Source of the DNA: Onchocerca volvulus
Taxonomy: Eukaryota > Nematoda > Chromadorea > Rhabditida > Onchocercidae
Reading direction: 5' to 3'
DNA: 64,000 bases
Assembly: GCA_000499405.2 (NCBI GenBank)
Contig: HG738139.1
Coordinates: 13,948,183 to 14,012,182, forward strand
Part shown: positions 2,087-56,540 of the stretch, piece after piece
Layout: each line of letters starts with the position of its first letter
Position numbering within the stretch: position 1 is the first letter of the stretch
Program-made: the position numbers and the translations under genes
The notes under the pieces: model-generated
Told to the model about the DNA's origin: nothing
The model's input: the letters and a program-made list of their open reading frames with translations, nothing else
The model's database searches: none

Positions 2087-5000
2087 TTATTGAAAAATAT
2101 GCAAATTATTGAGCACTTTAGTAACCTGTTCAATCAACCGTTCAGTATATCGATCCATCGTTGTATCATCTACAGTAATATGTTCTAACTGTTCACATTG
2201 TTTTCCTGATTCGATCGGACATTTTGCCTTATAGTGTAATTTAATGGCCATATCCGGTTCGGCATAAATCGTCTTCGCTACATCAGCACGATTACGGTGT
2301 AATGCAAAATGATTGAATACAGTAGCAACCGTATCCGTACTAAAAAAAAATTCTATTCTATAGATGAAAAAATCGCAAATTACACATGCATAACTCATAT
2401 TATGTGTTCTTGCTTTTCCGGATGTTAGTTAAAAATAAACAAGCATAAAGTTCTATTTCTGACCTTTGTCATTTACATAAATTTGAATTGTTTGCGAGAT
2501 TAAGAGATTAATTGTCACTGAAAAGGTCAACGCATATCAAGAAACATTCAAGAAACAAAACAATTGCGCTCTGTACATAGTGATTTGAGCTTAAATTGAA
2601 GTTTGAAATAATGTCTGACAAAATTAAGTAAACTGAATCGAATATTTAGTCAGTATGCTTATAAAATTTTTTGAACGAATGACATTTGAAGATTCTGTTT
2701 CTTTGCAGAATATTGATAAGTCTAATCAAAAAAAAAAAAGCAAATGTAGATAATCTTCATCAAATCAGCAGAATTCAAAGCTATAATTATCATTCAGAAA
2801 GTTAAATTTAAAATTACTTGATGAAAGCTTTCCCGTATTCGCCTGGTTTGCTTAATGTTTCTGATTTTCGTCTATTCTGCAGCATATACATATATGCTGG
2901 AACAAGCGGGTTCAATAAATTGATACTGGATGGAAATTTGAATACATTTCGAATAGAAATTGAGGTAATTTCAGGTATTTTCGGATTTTTTTCATGAAGA
3001 GCAGTAATAACATTATCCAACATAGCAGTCCAATTGTCATGTTTTAGTGGTACGATGACTTCATCAATATCCAAAATCAAGATAAACTTGTGAGTGTTAA
3101 TATGCCTTAAAATAACAATCATTTCAGTTAAACAAATAAAACTCATTATGTGTTTAACTGCAACAACTCTGGTAGAAATGAATTAATTTCAATTTTAAAT
3201 ATATTTGAAATTTAGAAAAATAATTTGTATATTAATTTTAACTAACACAACATAAAGTACCTGTAAAAACAATCATTATATGGAATTAATTCATGACGTC
3301 GCTTTTGTTGCCTATTTCGCCAAATGAAACGACTTCTGATGTATACCTGATTTGGGGATTCACCAGGAAGATTAATTGGTATCTAAATAATATAAACGAT
3401 TAGTTGCGAATCAAATCATCACATTTTACATAAAATTTGAGACTAATTTTCAGTTAAAATCATTGAATGCTTCAAATATCTTAGATCAAAATTTGGAGAG
3501 TAACTTTGGTTAAACCTTATTGCTATTCATGCAAATACTTGCCTGACTCATTTTAGCAACATTTAAATAAAGCATAAAATAGTACCACAGTGATGAATCC
3601 TTGCTTGCTGTAATAATTTAAAACTTGTTGCATTTTATTTGGCACATAATAAGTATATACTGTAATCGTATCAGCACCAGTGATAAATTGCATTTCAATC
3701 CATTCAACCAAACGTTCTGGTATATCTTCAAGATAGTCAAGACCCTATAAATCTAGGAGATTAAATATTATTTTTTGATTTTTTTTTTAAATGGTAATAA
3801 CATTTTTAGCAAAGTTGGAAGAAAAGTTACATTGTAGTTGTAAGAAATGAATCGAAATTAAACAAATTACATAGAATGATGAATAATTTGAAAGTTCGAA
3901 AGTTAAAAATTCAACAATATTACCTTCACACAAACAGCAATTCCATTCTTTTCTTTTTTTAATGGTTGCATTCGTACTTGTGCGAAGATTTCCTGACTTT
4001 TACATGCTGTTTTACTCAATGAAATCGTCAAATTTGTGCTGTATTCGAAATACTTCGGCACAGGGCAACTAATCAGATTTGGAATATAAAAGAAATCTCG
4101 GGGATCCCAGGCACGTTGCCAAATTTCACGAATCGTTCCCTCAGTAACAATATATTGTTTGCGAACCATATCATATAGATTACAGAATATCTTGTCTGTT
4201 AGTGGAATAGATCGAAATGACATAGTTAATACCTAAAGGAATATAAATTACAGTTGAGAAAATTTCAAAAATAACGATTCATTCAGCAATTTATCTAGTT
4301 AATTTTAGGAGAAAATATGACAATGGAAAAGTTTGAAAAAATTAACGAAAAAGATGAAAATGTAGACGAAGAAATCTCAAAAATAATGATTCATTCAGCA
4401 ATTTATCTAGTTAATTTTAGGAGAAAATATGACACTGGAAAAGTTTGAAAAAATTAACGAAAAAGGTGAAAAAAGTAGAATTTTTTCTATTGCTTGAATA
4501 AATGAAATTATTCACTTGTATAATATGATTGTTCGGATAAAGTGAATTATGCCGTTTGTCATATGTTGCTGAATATACATAGAGATCATCATTTTGAAAC
4601 CAATCATTTGATATCACAACTTTGGGCATCTTCAGATAGCATCGCCACCAATATTGCCTTACTTTTTTCGCCTAAAAAAGAAAAGATAAAAAAAAAGTGA
4701 ATATTTAATAAAACGGATAAAGAATTCTTTTTTCCAATTATTCAACAAAATCATTAGAAAAAAGTGAATAGCATAAGTCTAGGGAAGAATTTAGCTTAAG
4801 AAGCCTAAAGTCAGATGATCAATATTCTCTAGCATAATTCCACAAATAGCCTATTTAAATTTCAAAAAGTTACTTCTTCAATTACTGGTCGAATTTCAGC
4901 TTTGCCAAGTTTCAGATCATACATATATTGCATCGTTTCCAATACATAATCCATATCATTAGTGAAACTTCCTTCATCATTATCATCTTCTGTTTGATAT

Positions 5001-13945: not shown

Positions 13946-15621
13946 TTAATCAATATCAAGCGATTGATCTTCTTTTAAAACAACAAATGTTTCCAAAGTC
14001 TTTTTATAATCTTTCATTTCCTCAGCATGCATTGGATGTCCCTTTAATTGATACTGTAAAAAGTTAAAATTTAAAATTTATAATTTGACGAGAATGCAAA
14101 TGCTGTTTATTTCAGAAAAAACGAGTAATTGTTAGTTTAATAAATCAAATAATGGAAATATAAAATAAAAAAAGGAGCTTATAAGTGATGTTTGACTTTT
14201 AACCTTAAGATGTTTCCAAAATCCGATTGTGAAACGACGCAATTGACATTGTACTTGTGAGGCTTTCCATTGACGCAAGGCAGTGCTGACATCCTGTTAG
14301 ATTTGATATCATTAATATTTCAGATATTTTTATATATCATTAACATTATTATAAGCCTTTTGTAGTAATTTTTAGTGAATTCTGATATTATTTGATTCAA
14401 AAATTTCTGGAATCTCGTAATTCTAAAACTTCTGGGATCTCGTAATTCTAAAAATATTTTTGATGTTTGAATAAATTATTTTGATTTGAATTTAGGACTT
14501 TTCTATTTCATCGGAATTAATTCTAAATTCGTTTATTGTAAGATAGCTTGGTTGGCAAATTTGAGTTGGTATGAAATATGATTTCATCCTCTCCTCTTAT
14601 TTTCATGATTTATACCGTTGGAGTCATTTGATTTGAATATTTTTTAGATTACATAAAGATATTTCCAGAATTTCCAGAAATAAATAAGATGCTCAGCTAT
14701 TGGTTATTTCATTTTATAATCGTACAACAATTCTAGTAGTTTTCATTTATTAATTCCACCATTCTTCAGTGAAATGATGTATGAATATAATTTTTGATTT
14801 TGCATAATTTTGTTTCAGCGATAATTTATCACTTGATAATACTGCTTATCTTCGTCGCTCCAATCTTCATAACCTGGCGGTGGTTTATTTCTGCGTTTTT
14901 TACGTGAAGAGGTTGACCATCGAGCACTCCATAGACTAGTCGTAGTCTATTATTTCATAATTAATAAAACAAATTATGATATTTAGCCAAAAAGTTTGAA
15001 CTGTGTCGAAACTTTTTTTTATCAAATGGAATATATAAGTCAAGAAAAAACTATTAAAAAGTAAGCAGAATACAATAAATTCGAATGTTGACAAAACAAT
15101 ACTTACTTTTCCCAAAGTTCCAACATTCCCTTCACTGGCCTAAAATAAATCAGTAATATGCAGTTAATATTTAGTCAAAAAAATAGCTTAGAACTGGTAT
15201 CTCATATCTCAAGTGCAGTTTTCTGTTGCATCGTTTCTCATCTTTAGAGAAAATTCCAACATTCTTGCCAGGTTTTTATCCAGAATCCTCTCTTTTTTAT
15301 CATTTATTTGCTTATATTATTTCCGCATTTTTTACTGGTACCTTTCTTGCAAAATATTGTGTTCATCATTATAAATAATAAAAAATTCCTGCTGTTTTAG
15401 AATAGGCAAAGTGCATCATATTGGAATATCAAATCAAACATGCCATTTGAATTTATACATTCTTTTTTGTAAGATATTCAGCATCATTCATAATTTTTCA
15501 AGATTTCAAAAAAAAAATTATGGACTTCAAAAATGGGATTTAAAATCAGGAGAATTTTAGCTACGACTGAATTGGACTTTTCCTGCATTTTCTCTTTTGA
15601 TCCTTTACTACTTTCCATCAT
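13946..15621 (-). CDS. Unrecognised 133-aa protein, five exons
   Basis: Exons 15565-15621, 15107-15139, 14833-14946, 14204-14293 and 13946-14053 all join in phase 0 with GT-AG borders. The product begins MMESSKGSKEKMQEKSNSV. It has a basic patch followed by a proline-acidic segment (KKRRNKPPPGYEDWSDEDKQ), then a helical aromatic/basic region (RQWKASQVQCQLRRFTIGFW) and an acidic, lysine-rich C-terminus. I see no signal peptide or membrane segment and do not recognise a family. The first exon is the least certain: its donor, GTAGCT, is weak. Across the three middle exons a second frame is also open (see findings). The gene lies head-to-head with the E2 gene, about 250 bp between starts, so they may share a promoter. 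Confidence 0.55.
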
Positions 15622-15873
15622 TCAAAAACGAATAAGAGAATTTCCGATAGCAACCGCTTATCAGACTCTCAAAAATAAACAATAAGAAAAGCTTTAATTT
15701 AATAAATTATATAAAATTGAATCAATAATTTGTATGGAAGACTATGTTATCTCCCTACATAATTTTTGTTTTAGAATATTTACATTGAATTTAGTGAATT
15801 GCGCCTTTTAAATTATCAACTTCAATTTCAAATCATACTTCGTGTCATTAAAATTCGCTAAAGACGGTTGCTT

Positions 15874-15933
15874 ATGACAGAACTGAAGAAGGACGAAGCT
15901 ATTGGGGTTACAAGGCTAAAAAAAGTGCTTTCT

Positions 15934-15973
<40 letters not shown>

Positions 15974-17180
15974 TGAATTAATGTTGCTTTGTTAGTTTCT
16001 TAAATTTGTGCTTTCTAAAAATTCAGGAACTATTTGATATTCAAGAAATAAAATTGAAACTGTATGAAGTGGAGGATGCCGGAAAAAGCGATCCGAATAA
16101 GTGGTTGGTATTGCTGTTGCCGGTTAGAAATTTCAAACTTTCATTTCTTCATTTAGCTGAATAAGCTTGGATTCATAAGCAAAATTATATTGGAAATTTT
16201 GTAAAGGAAAATATTTTGGATAAATCTACTCTACAGAGTGCTCATTTCATAATTCTTCAATTTCTAGTTTCTAAAAACAGATGTTTTTTAAATAGGATCG
16301 ATGGCCGTACAATGTCGGTGGTTACAAAGTAGAAATTGAATTCACTAAGGATTATCCATTTAAAGCACCGAAAATCAAATTTCTTACCAAAATTTATCAC
16401 CCTAATGTCAACGAAAACGGCGAAGTATATTTTTTATAAATAACGATTAAACAATTTCGATATCTAATACTACAGCAAATGCTTCCTAAGAATTCAATGG
16501 AAAGAAAATGCCAGAAAAGATATAATCAGATAATTGCTAATGTGAACTCTTTTTACTAGGTATCGCTACCTATGGCACTTAGTGAAAATTGGAAGCCATC
16601 CATCAAGATTGATCAATGTTAGTCATTATTGTCTCTTTTTGATTAATATGTTCATTTTAATCATAAGGGAATGATTTCCTTGTTTTCCGGGAAATTATGC
16701 TGTCAAAAAATAATGCTGATTGTTTTCCCAAAATTCTATGTTGCTATGACGGTAATTGAATAATGTCGAAGCATTAATTAATTCAATAAGAACAAAAGAG
16801 CCTTTTGAAACAGTAGCAAGTGGATAACATAAAACTGTTTATTTCTGATTATAGAAGAGGTAAGATACCAATATCAGTAAAGAAACGTGTATTGCCATCG
16901 ATCTACTCTTTATTCGCAATATTTTCAATTTAAGATGAAAATAATCACGGCTAATGGTCATAGATTTTAAAAATCATGAGCTTCGTTTCTGAAAATTCCA
17001 ATGATACATTCGAAATGCTTTCCAGTGTTAACTGCTCTCGCAGAGTTACTCTGTTCGCCGCAGCTTGGTTGTGTACTTCGTCCTGATTTAGCTGAACTAT
17101 ATGTCAAAGACGCTGATGCGTACAACAAAAATGCATCAGAACTCTGTAAACATTATTGTGAAAAACAAACTCATTCCTAA
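15874..17180 (+). CDS. UBE2L3-like E2 fold protein with Ser at the catalytic Cys
   Basis: Exons 15874-15924, 16027-16122, 16296-16424, 16560-16617 and 17026-17180 give 162 aa (human UBE2L3 is 154). The fold is collinear with UBE2L3/UBC-18: WLVLLLPD, then GGYKVEIEFTKDYPFKAPKI (the YPFK phenylalanine used for E3 contact is kept), then the HPN motif in KIYHPNVNENGE, then SENWKPSIKIDQ and a helical C-terminus ending EKQTHS. Eight residues after the HPN asparagine, where active E2s of this group have VCLP, this protein has VSLP: the catalytic cysteine is serine (about residue 94, codon TCG at 16563-16565). It should therefore not form a thioester with ubiquitin, though a serine ester is possible in principle. 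It could act as a UEV-like or decoy E2. The first 17 residues and the A-tract in intron 1 are the least certain parts. Confidence 0.88.
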
Positions 17181-17696
17181 ACCTAAGTTATTCTGCTTCA
17201 TACTATGCAAATTAGTGAAAAAATTCTTTCTGAAACTTTATTACGAATTTGATTTGGTGCATATTACAATAAATGTGATGATACGAAAAATTCAGATGAA
17301 TGACAAAGACCAACTGAAGTACAACTTGAATGACAGAACAAAACTTATCAACTACCTTTGTTATGAGTTCCTGTTCATATGAAATTTTCGAAACAAAATG
17401 AGACAGCATTTTCAGAAATATAAATTATGTAAAGCGGAGCCAATATTTAGTGCAATTTAAGCAGAAGGTTAAAATAGCTCTCAATTTGAAGAAAATGATG
17501 CCCAAAATTAAGAAGTCAGAATCTTCTGTAAAATGTTCGTCACAATATTTGGAGCTAGAAGCTAAAGACTCGAACAAAAAGAAAATATTTTTTACAAACA
17601 CAAGAAATACCCTCACAAAAAACACTTCATGACCAAAAAATATATGAACTTCGCGAATAATCAAACAATAAAAAAACAACGGGAGTAAATCAAATT

Positions 17697-22074
<4,378 letters not shown>

Positions 22075-48757: not shown

Positions 48758-49201
48758 TTATCTTGCTTTTTCACACTCCTCTTCGGTCCTCTTTTTAACG
48801 AAATCCAGCATCAACTGGAAAACTTCGCAACCTTCTAGATCTTTTGGCAAGTTCTTTCTTCCGGAAATATAGTAATATAAATCCCATTCCATATATTCAC
48901 CATTAATAATTTCATCGTAACGCATTAACTGCTTCAAGTTCATTTTCTGCAACATTTGATCCGCAAATTCACCCAATAATATATCATTTTCCAAGATACC
49001 ACGCTTTTTACTTTGATATAATAAACGAGATCGCTTCGTTTCTATTTTTTCATTCTCTAATCGTGATTCCGGATGATATTCATATGCCGTTTGAGGGATC
49101 TTCGCAGAAGAATCTTCTGAAAATTGAGCCAAAACTTGTGGGAACCATTTTTGTTTTCCACAAAGTTGTCGAATTGTACCAAACAGAATCATCCGATTCA
49201 T
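48758..49201 (-). CDS. sdhaf-2: Succinate dehydrogenase assembly factor 2
   Basis: Single-exon gene of 147 aa. The N-terminus is basic and hydroxylated with no acidic residue in the first 20 or so (MNRMILFGTIRQLCGKQKW), consistent with mitochondrial import. The family core is SRLLYQSKKRGILENDILLG, with the RGxxExDxLL motif and the following FA, then YDEIINGEYMEWDLYYYISG. SDHAF2 (yeast Sdh5) is needed for covalent flavinylation of SdhA in complex II. The gene lies between the TM2D2-like and DRG1 genes on the same strand. Confidence 0.95.
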   Translation of the reverse strand: MNRMILFGTIRQLCGKQKWFPQVLAQFSEDSSAKIPQTAYEYHPESRLENEKIETKRSRLLYQSKKRGILENDILLGEFADQMLQKMNLKQLMRYDEIINGEYMEWDLYYYISGRKNLPKDLEGCEVFQLMLDFVKKRTEEECEKAR

Positions 49202-49917
49202 AGTTATTTACTTCGATTTAAATTCGCCCTGGTCTATAAATATGTGAAGAAATTTAACAAATATCCATCAGAAATAATTTTGAGAAGAGTGAGTGAAGTC
49301 TACGAATTACTAAAAGAAATTCGCATGATCCAATAGTATGCTTCAATCATCTTCTAGTTCCATAAAAACAGTTTCTTATAGCACTTTATAAAATATGAAA
49401 AGAAAAACGACTTAGTGTATCAGTAAAGATACATCTTTAAAGCAAAAAACAAAATTAGGAAAAAAGATTTTTACCAAATGTAGCATTAATAATAACCATA
49501 ATTCAATTTAAATTCCATAACATATATTTTAAATTCAGATATTTTTTTCATTCATAATGTGCACCATACATTTTGAGTTTGTGGTTTGGAAATTTACATT
49601 CGTATCCGTGCTAGAGATTCCAAGAATCAGTACGATAAAAAGAGATATAGCAAAGAAATGAAAAATAAATCTATCCATCAATAACCAAAATTTTAATTTT
49701 AAATATTTTTTTTTTTTTCTGTAAAAGCATTACATGCAGAAATTTCTGCAGATGTTTCGAATATCTGCTCTGGAATAAAAACTTAAAGAACAGAACAATG
49801 TTTATTTAGTACTATTTTTTAATGATAATAGCTAATAATATTAAACAAAAACAGAAAACAGTATGAAATTAAAACAACTGGATAAACTTCTATTAACAAG
49901 AAAAATTTTCGAAAGAA

Positions 49918-53702: not shown

Positions 53703-56189
53703 TTCTTCACAATATTATTGCTTAGTTACTATTAAAAATTTTAGACTGAGGTTCTCCTAATTTTAAAAAAGGAAATAATTAAAATCAGGATCATTAACAG
53801 TTCTCCCTTCATTTTAATATCTTAACTTTCAGTCCAAACGTTATGTCTGAATTTTGCTGCTAAAAAGAATCAATACACTAACATTTCATACTCAATGATA
53901 AAATGATAAAAAGAAACCGATGTTTTTTCCTGCTCTAATTTTTCTACTTTTTCCCGTACAGAGCGCAACATTTCGTCGTTTCTTACTGCACTGGCTTTCA
54001 AGAAACCAAAATATTCAGGTAGTAACTGTTGCAAAGATCGCCTGTCTTCCATTTCCGCCGCAAGTCTAAGATGCATACATGACAAAAATGAGTCATTTAT
54101 GAAAAACATAAGAAAACTGCAACTGAATTTTATTTCGAATATCCAAAAAAAAAAAAATCACCTTTTGCAATACTCTTTGACTACAGGTTCAGCCTCCTTG
54201 ATCTTTTTTAATAATTCCACTGCTTGGGATTCACTTCTAATAGGTTTTAAAAGAGCAGGATTTGCTATCGTCTCCGGAAATGAGGCTATCAACTGGCTAA
54301 AAAAAATTTTTTTATCTGAATGAATGTCCAAGTATTAATGTGCATGTAAATAAATGAATGACTAAACCACTAATTGAAACTACAACGAATAAATGCATTC
54401 GTTGTACTCAGTGCATTAGATTTTTATGTGATGCAACAGGTATAAATGAATTTGGAGGTATTGGCAGAAGGAAAAATAAGAGGTTAGCATTTATATAAAA
54501 GGTGTAAGTAAAAAATGTTCAACAGTCTTCATGGTTTGGTCGGAAGAGAACGCAATTATAGCTTGAACGAATAATGAAAAAAACAGTATTTCGAGAAGAA
54601 AACTTATGAATAAGTCATTAGAAAAGTGTAAAATGTAGAATCAATTTGTACCGTGTTTCGGCATCAGCTGATGGTGGGTCTTCCAACTTTTTCAACAATG
54701 ATATTACATCTTCTGTTACTCGCGTCATGACTTTGACGTCAAAATTCTCACTATCTATTTTGCTCTGGAAGAATTACAGAGGAAAAATATTAGTTCTGAA
54801 ATTCACTCAAGTATTTAAAGATAAAAGAAAGCTATATCAAATGCAAGAGCATGAAAGATTACTAAAATAGCATATATATGAAAGAATAAACTAACTTTTT
54901 TCGGTTCCGGAGAATCTGTATCAACGGTAGGAGTTGATAAATGCGGCGAATCCACTGCCTTTCCAACATTCGGTGGTGTAGTTGGTGTTTGACGTGACTT
55001 CTGAATGCTTTCAGTACTTAAAACTGTCCCACCTAATTCAATATTGAACTCAACAAGTCTTATTCCAGTCAGCGATGACGTTACGGCATTCGTTAATCGA
55101 TCTACCTTCTCTTCGGAATATATTTGACGCTCACGAAAAACTCTCAAAATTTTTTTCATTGCCACTACTGCATCGGCATCTGCATGGATACTTACATGCC
55201 TATAAGGAATTTCGTCAGGTGAATTAATTTATTTTTGCTTTGCTTTGCATAGATGAATGCAAATTCATTGAAATATTATTTCATTAGCATATCTATTTAA
55301 TCAGTATATTAACTTATGATATGAGTAAAAACCTCAATTGTTTACTTGGAGTTAGAAAAAAAATAATGAAGACCTAATCAACACTTACAAACTCAATTAT
55401 TACATCCCAATCAAATAAACACCATAAAGATTTAAAAGGAATTGAGACTCAAAACCTACAAGGAACATACCTAAAGGCTGGTTCTAAATTTTCATAAAAC
55501 ATTCCCATGAAATGTGGACAGTGCTTTCGACTGTTTTGTATAACATCGTTGGCAAGATAGAGCAGATTGATTAAACGAACCGGTTTCGTTTCCTTCTTGA
55601 TTTCCTGAACATGGTAATAGAGAATGCTTTTAACCAAGAGCATTCGTTCTGCATAAAACTGCACCAGTTGTTTCCATCACCGTTTAAAGGAGAATAAATA
55701 CAGCTTCAAGTTCTAATCCCCTTATTCCATTTCCACATCCCAAGTTTCACGTCTTAATATATTGAACTTTTTTTTGTTCCCCATAGCAAATACGGTACCA
55801 CTAAAGAACGCAAAATCCACGTAGGCCCATAAATTAAACATAATTGACTTGAATCGTATGTTCCAAAAATACAAAAGACATATACTAGAATTCCAAACTG
55901 ACAGAAATGATATAATATTAAATTAAATTAACCACAGACTTCAGAAAGGAAATGACTCAAAAAGTTCCTGATCTTCACCAAGCAAGGATACGATTCCTTT
56001 ACAAGGTGGTATTATCAATGCATTCCGTCCACAGTTAAAAGTAATTACCTGAAGCCACACTTTGACAATTGTTTCTGCATGGCTTTTCTGATGATGTAGC
56101 AACCACATAGACATCATCTGCACCGATTGCTGCGTTGTGTTCAATGTCTGCAACCGTCTTGACATCGCTGCCTCAGAAAAGCCGGCCAT
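53491..56189 (-). CDS. cids-1: CID-domain protein of the RPRD1/CIDS family
   Basis: Exons 56049-56189, 55471-55604, 54896-55199, 54652-54764, 54162-54296, 53918-54065 and 53491-53634 agree in phase, giving 372 aa. The CID fold begins MAGFSEAAMSRRLQTLNTTQ with QQSVQMMSMWLLHHQKSHAE, then the signature INLLYLANDVIQNSRKHCPH, and FRERQIYSEE. A linker rich in Ser, Thr and Pro (PTTPPNVGKAVDSPHLSTP) leads to a C-terminal coiled coil with RLAAEMEDRRSLQQLLPEY, and the end has SLPDLADLPASALPPLPSLG, a shared RPRD1 motif. RPRD1A/B bind phosphorylated RNA polymerase II CTD and assist dephosphorylation and termination. A CTCTTCAG acceptor 13 nt upstream of the ATG (after 56203) suggests trans-splicing. Confidence 0.93.
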
Positions 56190-56540
56190 CAAGGATTCTT
56201 TTCTGAAGAGTAAATAAATTAATATTTGCAACAAGTACATCTGCGCATCTTGGTAAATATACTATTTTGGCAGAATAATGCTATTCATTAGTCACAGTGC
56301 TTTAATCATAATGCCACTCTATGATGCGAATAATTTACTCATTCAAAAATCTTATTTTAGCAAAAGTCTTAAATTTTTTCTAAAGTAATTTTTTCGAAAA
56401 TCCTTTTTCAAAAATCTTCTCAATTTTTATTTCTCTTCACTCAGACTTGTTCTTTGCTCCTCCCACATCACTGATATTATCACTTATTTGTTATCACCAT
56501 CTCCAACTCCCGGTTCGTTAATGGTCGTTGCGGGAACACT

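Follow-up and report, generated by a model that had tools for sequence, protein, structure and literature searches.

Gene Structure at the Locus

The stretch of Onchocerca volvulus DNA analysed here (contig HG738139.1, positions 13,948,183 to 14,012,182; 64,000 nucleotides, termed below the window) contains at 15874-17180 of the forward strand a gene of five exons, which encodes a protein similar to the ubiquitin-conjugating enzyme (E2) UBE2L3, with serine in place of the catalytic cysteine. It belongs to a family of nematode proteins that lack the catalytic cysteine in every row examined and that carry another cysteine, at the position of UBE2L3 His119, in every row spanning that site.

Splice reconstruction gives 162 codons and a stop codon; all four introns are of the GT...AG type and the reading frame is unbroken (Table 1). 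The product has the predicted UBC fold (Pfam UQ_con, 109.8 bits; cut-off 27), and human UBE2L3 aligns to its residues 13-159 without a gap. The same residue pairing was obtained in a structure alignment, in which 154 residues were aligned (model residues 5-158, chain residues 0-153). Exon 4, that is exactly 16560-16617, translates to VSLPMALSENWKPSIKIDQ. An earlier note on this DNA had read VSLP in exon 4 instead of VCLP and had counted two changes between the serine codon and either cysteine codon; both readings hold, and the HPN and YPFK motifs, which it reported as retained, are present together with NWKP. A six-frame scan of 15001-18500 for a cysteine-type active-site exon ([VIL]C[LIMF][PA] or C[LIM]P) gave none.

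Table 1. Features of the UBE2L3-like gene and domain matches elsewhere in the window (window coordinates).
Feature	Position	Strand	Remark
Exon 1, with start codon at 15874 and helix 1 residues TRLKK	15874-15924	+	Splice reconstruction, GT donor
Exon 2, 96 bases	16027-16122	+	AG acceptor, GT donor; length equal to exon 2 of the canonical UBC-18 gene
Exon 3, with YPFK (E3 contact) and HPN	16296-16424	+	HPN at 16398-16406
Intron 3, 135 bases, just 5' of the active-site exon	16425-16559	+	Not in the canonical UBC-18 gene
Exon 4, active-site strand VSLP and NWKP	16560-16617	+	NWKP holds UBE2L3 Lys96/Pro97
TCG codon, Ser94	16563-16565	+	UBE2L3 catalytic Cys86
Exon 5, alpha3-alpha4 loop SPQLGC, C-terminal helices, TAA stop	17026-17180	+
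TGT codon, Cys127	17070-17072	+	UBE2L3 His119, CES/D site of the catalytic cleft
AATAAA, possible poly(A) signal 3' of the stop	17268-17273	+	Motif match only
Glycosyltransferase family 92	2817-3182	-	Weak match, under its cut-off
Sdh5 (flavinator of succinate dehydrogenase) domain	48761-49207	-	71.2 bits
CID domain	55944-56261	-	36.7 bits

A Canonical UBC-18 in the Same Genome

The search for a second UBE2L gene with the cysteine, which the earlier note had proposed, was carried out on the genome, 94.7 Mb in 115 contigs, and revealed a canonical gene elsewhere on this contig, near 4.09 Mb. Its exons (823-852, 1188-1283, 1513-1699 and 2200-2357 of locus L011) encode UBC-18 with GQVCLP and DHPL, and the idea that the window gene is the sole UBE2L gene of the genome was therefore rejected. 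Three intron positions are common to both genes. In the window gene, exons 3 and 4 together are as long as canonical exon 3 (129 + 58 = 187 bases, and 187 bases), so that the window gene has one additional intron, placed right before the active-site codons. In the second of the two trees described below, the window gene falls outside the group formed by the canonical gene and P0015, a UBC-18-type protein of Caenorhabditis nigoni (98/85). The window gene is a paralogue, a member of its own UBE2L-derived family and not UBC-18; of the match to UBE2L3/UBC-18 claimed earlier, the gapless likeness to UBE2L3 stands and the identity with UBC-18 does not.

The Nematode Paralogue Family

Three protein searches provided 14 relatives, which together with the window gene make a family of 15 rows. 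Filarial members come from Onchocerca ochengi, O. flexuosa, Brugia, Wuchereria (two fragments), Loa, Dirofilaria, Litomosoides, Setaria and Elaeophora, and further ones from Thelazia, Gongylonema and the ascarids Toxocara and Parascaris. The exon 1 motif RLKKEL is present in most of the rows that span this region. The protein of O. ochengi (P0001) is 96% identical to that of the window, the difference being a stretch absent from the P0001 model. The six residues VTRLKK are missing from it, which would result if the exon 1 donor had been placed at the GT in GGG|GTTACA (15906-15907); since most relatives spanning the site retain VTRLKK, the P0001 model is probably wrong. Other database models are also of low quality: the sequence of P0012 is scrambled, retained introns seem to be present in P0011 and P0010, the N-terminus of P0006 is unusual and P0009 ends after exon 4.

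Two trees were built. The first comprised 12 of the 15 family rows and 23 other E2s (P0008, P0009 and P0012, being partial or scrambled, were omitted), and in it the family formed one clade with support of 100/100. The family descends from UBE2L, as it lies on the UBE2L side of a branch (100/97) against four other E2-like rows, an outgroup of non-L proteins with long branches (noted by a program warning); the rows of this tree included few non-L E2s and no ubiquitin E2 variant (UEV). The second tree was limited to 19 UBE2L rows with positions 86 and 119 (UBE2L3 numbering is used throughout) masked, and the family clade was still supported at 100/100. Its stem, with 1.02 changes per column, is a long one and points to much change in the family after its origin. 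As to the placement of Gongylonema relative to the ascarids, the approximately unbiased (AU) test gave p 0.523 for a spirurid clade, and Cys86 may have been lost once or twice, given that separate changes of Cys to Ser and of Cys to Gln require as many steps, two, as Cys to Ser followed by Ser to Gln.

The family may extend beyond the sampled spirurids and ascarids. The UniRef name of the Brugia member is BMA-UBC-24, which suggests that a C. elegans orthologue may exist, UBC-24 having been compared by name alone; a table in PMC9300945 gives no fly or human counterpart of ubc-24. No Caenorhabditis member was named among the 8 matches to a Toxocara protein query, which was a weak test (27 candidates).

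Two Substitutions in One Catalytic Cleft

The cleft was examined in a MAFFT alignment of 175 rows (173 database proteins and the two O. volvulus genes). The rows outside the family are the matches listed by the searches, of which the second protein search contributed the best 120 of 6122, and the counts given for them apply to these matches. At position 86, occupied by the catalytic cysteine in UBE2L3, serine is found in 13 of the 15 family rows and glutamine in the remaining two (Toxocara and Parascaris), whereas the 160 other rows have cysteine in 158, serine in one (P0060, a Lottia protein) and a gap in one. The serine of the window gene recurs in 12 database rows, which represent 11 further spirurid species, and this excludes the single sequencing error that the earlier note had already considered insufficient.

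The second substitution was overlooked in that note. Position 119 is a residue of the catalytic cleft; the majority of E2s have Asp or Ser there (PMC4604453, PMC5095918), and UBE2L3 has His119. All 14 family rows that span it have cysteine, which occurs in none of the 157 other rows with a residue there (116 His, 29 Glu, 7 Gln, 3 Asp, 1 Ala and 1 Gly, with 3 gaps). Among the 8 columns with cysteine in any family row, only this one is cysteine throughout. The surrounding cleft loop is remodelled in the family (113-120, a region picked after inspection of the alignment), and HPN (15/15) and Asn94, the residue that contacts the ubiquitin tail in UBE2L3 numbering, are invariant. In the structure of HHARI with UbcH7-Ub the carbonyl of ubiquitin Gly76 points to the His119 side chain (PMC5548887), so that, by analogy with this structure, a cysteine at position 119 would adjoin the point that carries ubiquitin and would lie near the reaction centre.

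Comparison with Known E2-like Proteins

In relation to UBE2L3/UBCH7 (UBC-18 in C. elegans), the family differs by Cys86 to Ser or Gln, His119 to Cys, Pro117 to Leu and Pro120 to Val, Ala or Ile. UBE2L6 is likewise a diverged UBE2L paralogue, but it keeps Cys86 and belongs to a separate clade. Human UBE2NL also has serine in place of the catalytic cysteine, yet it is related to UBE2N. C. elegans UBC-22 resembles the family in being a nematode E2 with a displaced cysteine and doubted activity (PMC3368771, PMC1952058); however, its Cys74 is described as preceding the normal site by 12 residues and does not lie across the cleft (PMC3368771). The identity of UBC-22 is disputed, since it is regarded as a yeast Ubc1 orthologue (PMC3368771) or placed alongside UBE2L genes in a table (PMC9300945), and its kinship with the family, compared by description alone, is possible.

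Proposed Function of the Family

We favour, with confidence that is about even, the view that the protein is a pseudo-E2 which docks on RING-between-RING (RBR) or HECT ligases and acts as a competitor or scaffold. Its gene would stem from a UBE2L gene and predate the divergence of the sampled spirurid and ascarid nematodes, and the product would retain the UBC fold without being able to form the normal Cys86~ubiquitin thioester, given that glutamine at position 86 could hardly be charged normally and that serine there would probably not be charged productively. Much of the docking surface for RBR and HECT ligases appears to be kept (Arg6, Lys9, Phe63, Lys96, Pro97 and Lys100): Pro97 is found in 15/15 rows, Phe63 in 14/15 and Lys96, the RBR determinant, in 14/15. 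The pseudo-E2 would then most probably sit on RING1 of an RBR ligase, for which ARI-1 and Parkin are examples, or on a HECT ligase, and would either compete with charged UBC-18 or keep the ligase bound to an E2. Human UBE2L6, which binds HHARI with little resulting activity (PMC5548887), provides a precedent for such unproductive occupancy. In C. elegans UBC-18 acts together with ARI-1 (PMC8408604), and six IBR matches, distributed over five places of the O. volvulus genome, could be candidate partners of the pseudo-E2. The E2s named in the available portions of two filarial papers are of the UBC-2 and UBE2N types, the window-gene family not being among them (PMC2927424, PMC7914743).

Several observations weigh against such a role. 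Taken together, the docking residues show no significant excess of conservation over the other conserved positions (0.72 against 0.56, P 0.10), so that this test alone gives no support to a decoy; the RBR competitor or scaffold suggested in the earlier note thus retains in its favour the kept Phe63, Lys96 and Pro97, and not the whole contact set. Two HHARI contacts are altered, Ala98 in 13/15 rows and Thr99 in 15/15. A pure decoy could dispense with the invariant HPN and Asn94, and it leaves the new cysteine of the cleft unexplained.

These last features, and likewise the presence of two different residues at position 86, would be explained if the nucleophile had been relocated, an alternative that we regard as possible, although doubtful. 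According to it, Cys127, at UBE2L3 position 119, takes ubiquitin or a ubiquitin-like protein from the activating enzyme E1, and the dispensable Cys86 changed to serine in one branch and to glutamine in the other. The restriction of this cysteine to the family among the rows examined, its being the only column with cysteine throughout, and the invariance of HPN and Asn94 all speak for it, and the two states at position 86 together with a single state at 119 would fit an earlier gain of the new cysteine. A thiol there would sit near the reaction centre, as the direction of the Gly76 carbonyl implies (PMC5548887), and catalytic residues that have migrated are documented in other pseudoenzymes (PMC10211241). 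Nevertheless, the geometry of transfer from E1 and to E3 is tuned to Cys86, a cysteine close to the cleft could have a structural, redox or metal-binding role, and its coincidence with the loss of Cys86 may be due to chance (a rough guess being 0.01-0.05). To our knowledge, moreover, there is no E2 with its catalytic cysteine at position 119.

It is unlikely that the protein is instead a UEV-like co-factor, which would form a pair with UBC-18, UBC-13 or another active E2 and orient the acceptor or donor ubiquitin without docking on an E3. The absence of the catalytic cysteine from all 15 rows, within an E2 fold, is indeed what UBE2V1/2 have in common with the family, and this part of the UEV-like scaffold proposed in the earlier note stands. 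However, HPN is kept throughout the family, whereas UBE2V proteins are described as lacking it (PMC5095918), and the similarity of the family is to UBE2L3.

The oxyester enzyme, also put forward in the earlier note, in which ubiquitin would be carried on Ser94 itself, appears very improbable. Serine is present in all 13 spirurid rows, but the glutamine of Toxocara and Parascaris disfavours oxyester chemistry as a family-wide function, and Cys-to-Ser mutants of E2s give a stable oxyester and poor transfer.

We give hardly any credence to a decaying pseudogene or an assembly or annotation error, for although the length of the family stem indicates evolution faster than that of UBC-18 and several database models are suspect (P0012, P0011, P0010, P0006, P0001), the frame and splice sites of the window gene are intact and open relatives with the same substitutions exist in 12 genera (two as partial or scrambled models), as the earlier note had anticipated in arguing for an intact non-canonical E2 and against a simple pseudogene.

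Significance

Inactive E2-like proteins, the UEVs, are already known. What appears to be new is a conserved E2-like protein of human and animal parasites that is derived from UBE2L3 and combines Cys-to-Ser with His-to-Cys in one cleft; in the open-licence literature no description of this family was found among the titles and abstracts of the matches listed. If the family acts as a decoy, the worms would possess in it a natural means of regulating RBR ligases, for example ARI-1 or Parkin. If, on the other hand, the cysteine has moved, it would follow that an E2 can remain catalytic with its nucleophile in another place.
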